From positions 1,085,704 to 1,149,703 of the forward strand of contig NZ_LMUR01000018.1 of assembly GCF_009765825.1 (NCBI RefSeq): 64,000 nucleotides of DNA. The letters are read 5' to 3'. Positions 1 to 3,738 of this stretch are shown one piece after another; the first letter of the stretch is position 1, and each line of letters opens with the position of its first letter. The notes under the pieces are model-generated. The model was given only the letters and a program-made list of their open reading frames with translations, ran no database searches and was not told where the DNA came from. The translations under genes were made by a program, and so were the position numbers. The stretch comes from Granulicella sp. L60. GTDB taxonomy: Bacteria > Acidobacteriota > Terriglobia > Terriglobales > Acidobacteriaceae.

Positions 1-662
1 GCCGGCTTCGTTTTGGTGGATTTGACGGCTTTCTTTGCGGCTGTCTTCTTTACTGCGGCGGACTTCTTCGCTACGACTGACTTCTTCGCTGGGGCTTTCT
101 TCGTGATGGCGGTCTTCGTCTGCTTGAGAGTGGGCTTGTTGGTGGCAGCTTTCTTGGCGACGGTCTTCTTCGCGGCAGGTTTCGTGGCTGCCTTCTTTGC
201 GGCGATTTTCTTTGCGGTCTTCTTCGCGGCTGGCTTCACTGCAGCCGATTTCGGTGGCTTGGGCGCGGCCGGTGGCTTCGGCATGCTTGCGAGTTTTCTT
301 TCGTGAGAGGCGATGAGGTCTTCGATCTGCTGGAGCAGGATGCGGGTGTGCATCGGCTTGACCAGAAGCTGATCGGCGCCCATCTCCTGCCAGTCTTCTT
401 CGGCTACGGGAAAGGCGGTGAGGAGGGCTACGGCTGGATGGTATGCGGCGGCGCGCGCTGCCTTGATGACCTCGATGCCGGCGACGTCGTGCTCCATGCG
501 CATGTCGGTGATCAGCATGTGGTACTCGCGGGTGTGCAGCTTGGAGACGCCTTCGCGGGCGGATGCGGCCGTATCGACGTCGAAGCCGCTGATCTCGAGC
601 ACGGCCTTGAGGGTGAGCAGGACGGCGACTTCGTCATCGACCAGTAGAATGCGTCGTTTCAT
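1..662 (-). CDS. Response regulator receiver protein with Lys/Ala-rich histone-H1-like tail (partial, 3' end outside window)
   Basis: The minus-strand ORF starts at an ATG (662-660) preceded by AAAGGA and stays open to the left edge, so the C-terminus is missing. Residues 1-120 form a CheY-like receiver: acidic pair D9/D10, phospho-acceptor D53 in LITDMRM, T82 in LLTAF, and K102 in LLVKP. After about residue 125 there is no output domain. Instead the protein becomes a long run of KPAAKK, AKKTVAKK and similar units, like the C-terminal tail of histone H1 or bacterial HU/Hc1 proteins. Such tails bind DNA without sequence preference. A phosphorylation-dependent nucleoid or DNA-binding role is inference. 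No sensor kinase is adjacent within the window. Confidence 0.85.
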   Translation of the reverse strand, partial: MKRRILLVDDEVAVLLTLKAVLEISGFDVDTAASAREGVSKLHTREYHMLITDMRMEHDVAGIEVIKAARAAAYHPAVALLTAFPVAEEDWQEMGADQLLVKPMHTRILLQQIEDLIASHERKLASMPKPPAAPKPPKSAAVKPAAKKTAKKIAAKKAATKPAAKKTVAKKAATNKPTLKQTKTAITKKAPAKKSVVAKKSAAVKKTAAKKAVKSTKTKP

Positions 663-799
663 GTGGTTCCTTTCGAGTGCTTCCGAGCCAACATACATGA
701 TACGGCAGGTGATTCCAAAGTCTGGGACGAAGCGACGTGGAGGTTTTTCTGCGGCGTGCATCCAACCTGTTCTTTAACAGCGCATCTCATCGAAAATGC

Positions 800-1544: not shown

Positions 1545-2078
1545 TTCAAGGCATCTCCCGGCCAGATTCCTGAGATGAACTTCCGGGGTTGAATTCACTC
1601 GAACTCGGTCCGTTTGGGCCGGTTTGATGTGCAGAACTTTTCACATTCTCATTATTAGTTGCATCCATACAGGACGACCAGATGTCTCAAGGTCGTCCTG
1701 TATGTGTTTAATCCTGCGCTTCGGCACGTTGCCGAGCCCACCTCTTTCATCCGATTTCTTCGAATGAGAACGCATCTTCCGCCGCAAAAGCGAAGATCTG
1801 CTGATCCTCGATGGCCGGAGATACCGATGAGACGTACTTAGGCGAATAGAAGCCAGCTCTGGAAGTCCCCTTAGATGTCTCTTTGTGTGAGGGCGTTTCC
1901 AGCCTGCGTGTTTATTATGCGTGTCTACGTTATTACCTTAGTAACCAAATCTATATAATATCTTCGTATATTACTGATTACATTAGACTTATAGTCTCAT
2001 ACATTCTATGGTTACTTCATCGAGTCTGTCTACAGAAATCTTTTAGACAGCAATACAACTTTCGGGGGTTATCTCACT
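1545..2078. other. Intergenic region with hairpin and AT-rich leader
   Basis: This 534-base gap holds the perfect hairpin described separately at 1666-1704 and then an unusually AT-rich block (about 1900-2055) that contrasts with the GC-rich surroundings. The block runs into the first secreted-peptide gene. A 7-bp inverted repeat (CTGTCTA at 2026-2032 and TAGACAG at 2044-2050) lies just before the peptide ribosome site. A 60-codon ORF at 1659-1841 overlaps the hairpin and resembles no family I know; I do not call it. Confidence 0.5.
1666..1704 (+). terminator. Perfect 14-bp hairpin downstream of infC
   Basis: The arms 1666-1679 (CATACAGGACGACC) and 1691-1704 (GGTCGTCCTGTATG) are exact inverted repeats around an 11-base loop. 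No strong T-run follows, so it may be an infC terminator or an RNA-processing or protein-binding site. Confidence 0.5.
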
Positions 2079-2246
2079 ATGAAACACATCGTCCGCGCTT
2101 TCGTCGTCGTCCTGGTCCTTACCGGTGTTGCCGCTACCACCCAGACCTCTGCTTCCACCAAGAACAATGTGACCGTCTCCCGCACCAGCATGGTTCCGGT
2201 TCCAGTGTGTGCGCCAAATGACCCCAACGCCTGCGGAATGCGCTAA
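2079..2246 (+). CDS. Small secreted peptide, tandem copy 1 (55 aa)
   Basis: The ORF is ATG-started and preceded by CGGGGGTT. It begins MKHIVRAFVVVLVLTGVAAT, a textbook Sec signal peptide (basic n-region, long hydrophobic core). The predicted mature part is only about 30 residues: polar, Thr/Ser/Lys-rich, ending MVPVPVCAPNDPNACGMR. The two cysteines could form a nine-residue disulfide loop. It is nearly identical to the two following ORFs, and the spacers between them are also repeated, so the three arose by recent tandem duplication. No family is recognised. A secreted structural peptide, signal or modified peptide precursor are all possible. A coding role is supported by conservation of frame, signal peptide and C-terminus in all three copies. 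Confidence 0.75.
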   Translation: MKHIVRAFVVVLVLTGVAATTQTSASTKNNVTVSRTSMVPVPVCAPNDPNACGMR

Positions 2247-2318
2247 ACGCATACTTCTGTCCTGATATCAGCCATGTTCAAGATCCTACCTAACCAGCGC
2301 AATCCAAGGAGTTCCACT

Positions 2319-2489
2319 ATGAAACACATCGTCCAGGCCTTCGTTGTTGTCCTCGTTCTCACCGGTGTTGCTGCCACCAGCCAGACCTCCGCCGCCTCCA
2401 CCAAGAACAAGGTGACTGTCTCCCGCACCAGCATGGTTCCGGTTCCAGTGTGCGCGCCAAATGACCCCAACGCTTGTGGAATGCGCTAA
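2319..2489 (+). CDS. Small secreted peptide, tandem copy 2 (56 aa)
   Basis: Start ATG at 2319 follows a good AAGGAG ribosome site. The signal peptide (MKHIVQAFVVVLVLTGVAAT) and the C-terminal 16 residues PVPVCAPNDPNACGMR are the same as in copy 1. Differences cluster in the middle (SQTSAASTKNKV against TQTSASTKNNV). Copy 2 has one more Ala than copy 1. The 72-base spacer ahead of it repeats in front of copy 3 with few changes, which places the duplication unit at about 240 bases. The upstream in-frame ATG at 2274 lies inside the repeated spacer and is not conserved as a coding sequence. Confidence 0.75.
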   Translation: MKHIVQAFVVVLVLTGVAATSQTSAASTKNKVTVSRTSMVPVPVCAPNDPNACGMR

Positions 2490-2562
2490 ACGCATACTTC
2501 TGTCCTGATATCAGCCAAGTTCGAGATCCTACCTAACCAGAGCAATTACAGGGAGTTACACC

Positions 2563-2733
2563 ATGAAACACTTCGCCCACGTCTTCGTCGCTGTTCTCGT
2601 TCTCACCGGTGCTGCTGCCACCAGCCAAACTTCCGCTGCCTCTACCAAGAACAAGGTGACTGTCTCCCACGCCAGCATGGTCCCGGTTCCAGTGTGTGCG
2701 CCAAATGATCCCAACGCCTGTGGAATGCGGTAG
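2563..2733 (+). CDS. Small secreted peptide, tandem copy 3 (56 aa)
   Basis: The ATG at 2563 is preceded by AGGGAG. This is the most diverged copy (MKHFAHVFVAVLVLTGAAAT signal; SHASMVPVPV instead of SRTSMVPVPV) but the C-terminal CAPNDPNACGMR is unchanged, while many third positions have drifted. That is what purifying selection on the peptide tail would look like. It ends about 94 bases before the seven-helix membrane protein gene on the same strand, which is a candidate partner such as exporter, receptor or immunity protein. That link is positional only. Confidence 0.75.
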   Translation: MKHFAHVFVAVLVLTGAAATSQTSAASTKNKVTVSHASMVPVPVCAPNDPNACGMR

Positions 2734-2778
2734 AACCGAACTCCGCAAAAAATTGCATAGTCCGTAATAATTTCTTGT

Positions 2779-2824
2779 ATCGGTCCCCGGGATAAGCTAC
2801 GCTGTGTTAGTTAGAGGGACCGAT
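2779..2824 (+). promoter_or_regulatory. 5'-UTR hairpin that can sequester the ribosome site of the 2827 gene
   Basis: ATCGGTCCC (2779-2787) is an exact complement of GGGACCGAT (2816-2824). The right arm contains the only ribosome-binding-like sequence (AGAGGGA) and stops two bases before the ATG at 2827. The loop is 28 bases. The pairing is seen directly; regulation through it is inference. Confidence 0.45.
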
Positions 2825-2826
2825 CT

Positions 2827-3738
2827 ATGAACATCTCCTCGTCAAGCCTGCTTACTTTCCTTGGATTCTTCGAGCCAGTTCTCTGTGGCATGGTTATCTG
2901 GTTTGTCGTACGCAATAAAGCTATACGCCAATTCGCCTTTCTCGTTGCGCTGATGAGCGTCAAGCTCATCTGTTCCGCAACCTGCATGGCTTTGATCTCC
3001 AGCCGGCATTCCCTGGGAATCGAACGGCATCTGGCCTACCAGATTTATTTCTACATCTACTGGGCGGGCTATGCGCTTGAGGCCATCCTGTCCCTGGCTG
3101 TGATCTACAGTATCTTCAAGCTGGCGATGGCTCCGCTCAAGGGGTTGCAGACTTTGGGGATGCTGGTCTTCCGCTGGGTGGCGGCTATCTCTGCAGCGGT
3201 CGCGATCGGTGTTGCGGTGACGCCACATCTGTCCGGCACCAACTTCATGGTTGCGATGATTACGCAATTGCAGCAGACCTCAAGCATCTTGACGCTTTGC
3301 CTGCTGCTGTTTGTCTGCTTCGCGATTCGTCCGATGGGGCTTTCGTACCGCAGCCGCATCTTCGGCGTTAGCATCGGCATGGGATTTCTGGCAGTCATTA
3401 ATCTACTGAACTCGGCATGGATCGCTCACTACTCCAGCATGTACTCTTCGCTGAGCGTAGTAAATGGTGTCGCTGTGGGCTCTACGCTGCTGATCTGGTC
3501 GGCTTACTTTGCCTTCCCCGAGCCCAAGCGCCGGATCATTGTCCTGCCAACGACGTCGCCGTTCCTTCGCTGGAACCAGATCTCGATGGCTCTGGGCGAC
3601 GATCCTGGTTTTGTGGCAGTAGGTGGGATTCCGCCGGAGCTGTTTGCGCCTGCGGAGCTTGAGGTTATGCGTCGGGCCTCTGCGAAGATGCCTTCGAACC
3701 TCGAGAGCCAGTCTGCACTGCATTCGTTATCTGCCTAA
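2827..3738 (+). CDS. Seven-helix integral membrane protein of unknown function
   Basis: A 303-residue protein with about seven hydrophobic segments, the first (LLTFLGFFEPVLCGMVIWFVV) at residues 8-28 and the last near 212-230 (GVAVGSTLLIWSAYFAF). A cytoplasmic tail of roughly 70 residues follows (PEPKRRIIVLPTT onward). No transporter motif, kinase or enzyme domain is visible. Similar sized seven-helix proteins of unknown role are common in acidobacteria, but I cannot name a family. It follows the peptide triplet on the same strand, with a hairpin in its leader. The convergent rpsA gene ends beyond a strong bidirectional terminator. Confidence 0.8.
   Translation: MNISSSSLLTFLGFFEPVLCGMVIWFVVRNKAIRQFAFLVALMSVKLICSATCMALISSRHSLGIERHLAYQIYFYIYWAGYALEAILSLAVIYSIFKLAMAPLKGLQTLGMLVFRWVAAISAAVAIGVAVTPHLSGTNFMVAMITQLQQTSSILTLCLLLFVCFAIRPMGLSYRSRIFGVSIGMGFLAVINLLNSAWIAHYSSMYSSLSVVNGVAVGSTLLIWSAYFAFPEPKRRIIVLPTTSPFLRWNQISMALGDDPGFVAVGGIPPELFAPAELEVMRRASAKMPSNLESQSALHSLSA

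Follow-up and report, generated by a model that had tools for sequence, protein, structure and literature searches.

What do three similar small open reading frames (ORFs) encode that stand in tandem directly before a gene for a membrane protein, and what ties the two kinds of gene together? The question is raised by a locus near the left end of the window, i.e., the whole stretch of 64,000 nucleotides of Granulicella sp. L60 (contig NZ_LMUR01000018.1) that was analysed. A preliminary description of this DNA had proposed tandem copies of an exported micro-peptide of no known family, followed on the same strand by a seven-helix membrane protein. The answer that we favour, and to which we give slightly less than an even chance, is that the locus specifies a secreted peptide and a dedicated membrane partner, a stand-alone seven-transmembrane (7TM) receptor; the two would work in the manner of a peptide pheromone system or of a peptide sensor in the periplasm. 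As far as can be judged from sequences, the pair seems to have evolved like a signal peptide with a receptor private to it.

The three ORFs are present as proposed (55, 56 and 56 codons); the frame of copy 2 also allows a reading of 71 codons from a start at position 2274. A core unit of 184 nt is repeated across them at a spacing of 243/244 nt, and a stretch resembling a ribosome-binding site (RBS) precedes each copy, as judged by eye. Each ORF begins with a short charged segment and a hydrophobic stretch, which in copy 1 reads MKHIVRAFVVVLVLTG; a linker then leads to the 16-residue tail PVPVCAPNDPNACGMR, which is identical in all three copies. By eye, the leader appears to be of the export (Sec) type. 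The earlier claim of an unchanged tail with drifting third positions was borne out: at codons 39–54 none of the three copy pairs shows a nonsynonymous difference, the synonymous ones numbering 3, 3 and 4, and it is the leader of copy 3 that has diverged most. Good matches to the peptide occur at these three places only in the 5.9-Mb genome of the strain (E < 1e-26); three other places match at E > 1.

Relatives exist far beyond this strain. A protein search with the peptide scored 306 of them at E <= 10, the best 120 all at E <= 4e-20, so that the ORFs are not a product of chance; those among the best 120 that carry an organism name all belong to Tunturi(i)bacter or Edaphobacter. Among 200 genomes of the Acidobacteriaceae, the family of the window, 80 matched at E <= 0.01 a profile made from 25 members, whose invariant residues are A, P, P, C, P and C; the weakest of these matches are perhaps due to chance. 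When 297 genomes were drawn from the phylum, 35 had a profile match, 24 inside this family and 11 outside (E 7e-4 to 0.009). The latter were taken as chance, and judged by the profile the peptide family is confined to one acidobacterial family among the genomes searched. The peptide and the 7TM protein of the window reached no cut-off in Pfam or NCBIfam; weak NCBIfam matches of the peptide, with 15.9 bits to MarB (cut-off 87) and 12.6 bits to CwrA (cut-off 75), were discarded, as they look like leader-sequence similarity. The peptides are an undescribed, putatively exported family ending in PxPxCxP...C(G), in agreement with the preliminary description. The Cys pair of the invariant C-terminal loop claimed there is present in the identical tails of the three copies but does not extend to the entire family, a few very diverged peptides lacking one or both cysteines. 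At five very diverged loci (L190, L192, L194, L197, L210) the exported peptide encoded upstream of the 7TM gene has the PxP motif without both cysteines, one being kept in L192. A contig labelled as a Rhodanobacteraceae metagenome-assembled genome (L244) also bears the peptide–7TM pair and is perhaps a misbinned acidobacterial contig.

The proposed linkage to the membrane gene was confirmed on 51 peptide loci chosen among the stronger profile matches. In 49 of them the 7TM gene lies directly downstream on the same strand, and the remaining two (L116, L123) end with the contig. The genes upstream vary by clade: members of the infC family (7 loci), the gyrB family (22 loci; listed on the opposite strand), the RNase R family (6 loci), or a phosphoribosyltransferase and an HNH protein (4 loci each), one member of each family having been checked in Pfam. 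The pair persists while these neighbours change, and the 7TM gene belongs to the peptides; no third gene family is constant among the loci compared. Tandem amplification, which the preliminary description had stressed, is real here but not a defining trait: 38 of the 51 loci have one peptide ORF, and two, three, four and six ORFs occur in 5, 5, 2 and 1 loci, respectively. Peptide copy number is incidental.

Pairing was also found in the reverse direction, starting from 40 loci of the 7TM gene, most of them without a strong peptide match. An export-type ORF of 40–70 codons lies just upstream of the 7TM gene in 20 of these 40 loci, compared with 3 of 94 other, mechanically called long ORFs at the same loci; with a PxP motif required, the counts are 19/40 and 1/94. 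The blind part of this test, which leaves out four loci with a prior profile match to the peptide (L193, L197, L204, L209), gave 17/36. The filters missed peptides at L202, L204 and L196 and accepted a doubtful one at L206; corrected by hand accordingly, 22 of the 40 diverged loci have a peptide, and in 18 none was seen. In a quick tree of 88 7TM proteins, flagged for long branches meeting and with L196 scored as peptide-free despite its peptide, the 69 peptide-bearing proteins are spread throughout, and the peptide label needs 8 changes as opposed to 17.4 in shuffles. Two genomes, G054 (L186/L187) and G108 (L184/L185), have two 7TM genes each, every one with its own small export-type peptide, and the tails differ. 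A clade of 7TM relatives (L195, L198, L200, L201, L205, L206) has no recognisable peptide gene upstream; these proteins are perhaps paralogues with another ligand or none.

The pattern of selection singles out the tail. Across 44 peptide rows, mostly from the window's genus and with one strain present twice, the ratio of nonsynonymous (pN) to synonymous (pS) differences was 0.41 overall, with a minimum of 0.22 in the tail and a maximum of 0.66 in the linker. The tail value is well below 1, so that a dN/dS near 1 is not seen and purifying selection acts at the amino-acid level. Copies within and between genomes were compared at 23 multi-copy loci, with identical sets counted once and rows with N, without a stop or without the tail motif dropped. 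Tails differed by pS 0.259 and pN 0.009 within genomes, and by pS 0.696 and pN 0.199 between genomes; 81 of 105 within-genome pairs had no amino-acid change in the tail, compared with 38 of 2821 between-genome pairs. These pairs are not independent, some loci coming from near-identical strains. Within genomes the pS of the tail resembles that of the leader (0.274), and conversion confined to the tail is therefore not the cause. Because large pS saturates, pairs were matched by whole-gene pS. In the range of 0.35–0.50, tail pN was 0.014 within genomes (31 pairs, 13 genomes) and 0.157 between genomes (670 pairs), with corresponding values of 0.080 and 0.223 for the leader and 0.141 and 0.382 for the linker. 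In the range of 0.50–0.70 (9 pairs, 5 genomes), leaders were alike (0.265 and 0.256) whereas tails were not (0.013 and 0.203). Tails showed no difference within and between genomes in the lowest bins, each of which contained 3 between-genome pairs. This says that the copies in one genome would answer to one and the same partner and that the match would drift between species.

The distance between tails correlates with that between the extracellular halves of the 7TM proteins (partial r 0.30) more than with that between the cytoplasmic halves (0.095), and for leaders the order is reversed (0.154 and 0.342, respectively); in 20 of 500 bootstraps the contrast was zero or less. The two halves of the 7TM protein also differ in conservation, the cytoplasmic half being more conserved (1.80 versus 2.48 bits, p 4e-9, cytoplasmic tail left out).

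An AlphaFold model predicts seven long helices for the partner protein, as had been claimed, and its single match in its own genome is to itself. In Pfam and NCBIfam no family was returned for it at E <= 10, and 40 members of its family gave scattered weak matches only, none to a kinase or a tetratricopeptide repeat (TPR) family and, in Pfam, none to a family of G protein-coupled receptors (GPCRs). No fused output domain was seen among these 40. Comparison by sequence with the PDB returned only MAP-kinase chains (E >= 0.027), and relatives among solved structures were dismissed on this ground. Models of two members that are 26% identical look GPCR-like, but this likeness is within the chance range for helical bundles.

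Based on these data we propose the following course of events. Each copy would leave the cytoplasm by the Sec route and be cut by signal peptidase, as its leader suggests, to release a peptide of about 30 residues with the proline-rich tail. The tail would probably be closed by a Cys-Cys bond to give a nine-residue ring. Judged from pairing and co-variation, the peptide may then act on the variable extracytoplasmic face of the adjacent 7TM protein, which may relay its state inward via its conserved cytoplasmic loops and tail. Since tails hardly diverge within a genome, extra gene copies would simply raise the dose of one same ligand. A bolder version holds that the partner is a stand-alone GPCR-like receptor with its own disulfide-looped peptide, that the pair represents a kinase-free class of signalling and that each species holds to one private tail in all its gene copies; this version we regard as speculative and rather doubtful.

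An alternative that we consider unlikely, yet the strongest of those weighed, is that the product is a small membrane or periplasmic subunit, which either retains its leader as a helix or remains permanently bound to the 7TM protein in transport, envelope or stress functions, no diffusible ligand being involved. Strict pairing and the constancy of tails within a genome are equally expected of a subunit, and a 7TM protein without an output domain would fit. However, all 124 distinct peptides have a possible cleavage site ([AVSTGIL]xA at residues 15–32), and 106 of them contain AxA, a permissive pattern applied without control to peptides preselected by the profile. Furthermore, constraint is strongest in the tail rather than in the leader, where the hydrophobic stretch lies, and no peptide was seen in 18 of the diverged 7TM loci.

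Next in rank, and less probable again, the peptides might be toxins or bacteriocins that kill competitors, with the 7TM protein as immunity partner of the producer. Tandem amplification, an exported peptide closed by cysteines, an adjacent partner and joint change of tail and partner would all be expected in this case. The distribution of the genes bears on it in two ways. The close form of the 7TM protein is not universal, being found in about 75 of 200 genomes of the family at E <= 1e-50 (hand count), and the peptide matched in 80 of the 200 at E <= 0.01. By contrast, a 7TM profile of 40 sequences matched at E <= 1e-5 in 182 of the 200 genomes, covering 76 of 79 genera, a count that takes in remote relatives matching in the helices only; in the phylum draw it matched 30 of 297 genomes, every one in the window's family. 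Close 7TM relatives were not found in a plasmid collection, where the protein of the window had no match, and viral contigs yielded no confirmed relative. A single chromosomal locus and wide spread are more in keeping with a signal than with a toxin, and it is because of this distribution that we rank toxin and immunity below signalling. The inclusion of remote relatives in the larger count weakens this argument, and to that extent it weighs against the reading that we prefer; distribution argues only mildly against a toxin. Further points against it are the lack of a third constant gene, the absence of any PADLOC family among the matches of peptide copy 2 and the 7TM protein, which also gives no hint of anti-phage defence, and the location of the best-conserved part of the 7TM protein on the cytoplasmic side.

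It is improbable that the 7TM protein serves, as an enzyme or exporter, to process, cyclise or transport a peptide whose target lies elsewhere. Gene order and pairing do resemble those of a peptide with its maturation protein, such as AgrD and AgrB. However, neither His nor Asp is among the 22 residues that are invariant or nearly so in the 40 members, so that no catalytic set of the type of the CREST hydrolases is conserved and a peptidase or hydrolase role was rejected, and the peptide already has what looks by eye like a Sec-type leader.

Elements that may control the locus were found upstream of both kinds of gene (Table 1). When 24 regions upstream of the first peptide gene were aligned, TACnTnnGTA was present in 22 and RGACTT in all 24 (by eye), and a conserved stretch runs from the RGACTT box to the start of the peptide. 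In 6/6 genomes of the same genus, picked among genomes from which the pattern had been read, the spaced pattern has a single occurrence, which lies at this locus; the control gave none. Both motifs at the tested spacing were found in 40 of 90 upstream regions, in 28 of 5200 random windows and in 60 of 363 AT-rich windows; the latter two controls are weak because both sample the same loci and hence contain the element itself. A generic promoter and terminator scan gave nothing useful. The promoter-like element of the 7TM gene begins with TTGTRT in 10 of 10 aligned sequences, and its second part, with constant spacing, reads TA[CG][GC]CT in 9 of them (TAGTTT in L074), as judged by eye.

The preliminary description had ascribed a hairpin-controlled leader to the 7TM gene. 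This is only partly supported: an inverted repeat over the RBS exists (folding z-score –1.89), but its upstream arm overlaps the conserved promoter-like element, and hence transcription would have to read through from the peptide genes for the hairpin to form. The hairpin is possibly a way of separating the synthesis of receptor and peptide. Among six species folded (z-scores –1.89, –4.06, –2.85, –2.69, –1.90 and –0.04), the RBS stretch AGG(G/U) is paired in five, in differing registers and in most relatives with another partner sequence, and lies mostly in a loop in L076, whereas RNAalifold yielded no consensus structure for 10 sequences including the window. That the small ORFs function through their RNA, or as leader peptides that regulate the 7TM gene, is most improbable despite the frequent pairing of the RBS of that gene, because selection acts on amino acids, an RBS-like stretch precedes each copy, the 7TM gene has its own promoter-like element, and a non-coding RNA was rejected because there was no consensus fold and the window gave no Rfam match at the gathering threshold.

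Table 1. Coordinates of the peptide–7TM locus and its putative control elements (window positions).
Feature	Position	Strand	Remarks
Palindrome TTACCTTAGTAA	1933–1944	+	Conserved upstream element of peptide genes, ~40 nt from TTAGACTTA
–35-like TTAGACTTA	1983–1991	+	Second part of the same element
–10-like TATGGT	2007–2012	+	18 nt after TTAGAC; consensus reading only, not reported by generic promoter scan
Peptide copy 1	2079–2246	+	55 aa; export-type leader and tail PVPVCAPNDPNACGMR
Peptide copy 2	2319–2489	+	56 aa
Peptide copy 3	2563–2733	+	56 aa; leader most diverged of the three, tail unchanged
Promoter-like TTGTAT-N17-TACGCT	2775–2803	+	Before 7TM gene; consensus reading only
Inverted repeat, arms ATCGGTCCC / GGGACCGAT	2779–2787 / 2816–2824	+	3' arm covers RBS of 7TM gene
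Partner 7TM protein	2827–3738	+	303 aa; N-out/C-in by loop charge; conserved cytoplasmic tail TSPFLRWNQISMALG

Apart from this locus, a minus-strand protein is encoded at window positions 3–761 which, by eye only, combines a receiver-like start with a long Lys/Ala-rich, histone-like tail.

To our knowledge, peptide signalling has not been described in Acidobacteria, and no paper on a peptide–7TM module was found among the literature matches listed. Acidobacteria are abundant in soils. The 7TM protein described here lacks a named relative in any library tried, its relatives (remote ones included) are present in 76 of the 79 genera drawn from the family, and alongside it is encoded a candidate ligand whose active part may be readable from evolution. 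If the receptor reading is true, the protein would represent a class of bacterial peptide receptors unlike the known kinase and TPR types.

How does the pair compare with known systems? A small propeptide with an export-type leader (by eye) and a conserved, putative C-terminal signal is what a pheromone system would be expected to have. The 7TM protein, in turn, was not assigned by Pfam or NCBIfam to either known type of pheromone receptor, histidine kinase or RRNPPA TPR protein. In AgrD/AgrC and ComC/ComD a small exported peptide is recognized by a histidine kinase, AgrD being cut and cyclised by AgrB. A small exported peptide and a membrane partner in one locus are shared with these systems; by contrast, no kinase domain was found here, and the leader appears to be of the Sec type. 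AgrB-type maturation relies on a membrane peptidase with a Cys-His pair, which is absent from the 7TM protein, where C158 is nearly invariant and no His is. Yeast alpha-factor acts on Ste2, a class D GPCR. The predicted seven-helix arrangement is similar and Ste2 chains are among the structural matches of the 7TM models, but the match lies within the helical-bundle background, and no sequence relation to Ste2 was found. Bacterial 7TMR-DISM, 7TMR-HD and HisKA_7TM proteins likewise have seven transmembrane helices and a sensory role; none of these families was listed for any of the 40 members at E <= 1. The CREST hydrolases, in which three His, one Asp and one Ser are conserved according to the outline in PMC3146951, also span the membrane seven times, but this residue set is absent from the 40 members.

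The Rap-Phr systems of the RRNPPA group in Bacillota, as outlined in PMC11343458, use an exported propeptide with a typically C-terminal signal, duplicated pheromone copies that serve a single receptor from a neighbouring gene, and receptors of high specificity; the pheromone is re-imported, a TPR protein serves as receptor, and a single propeptide contains the copies. The present locus differs from that outline in its separate peptide genes, in its 7TM membrane protein and in the phylum, and no sequence relation was seen. It shares with Rap-Phr a putatively exported propeptide, duplicated copies of the putative signal and a putatively specific partner encoded next to it, which would make this system the nearest known case that works in a like manner (PMC11343458).
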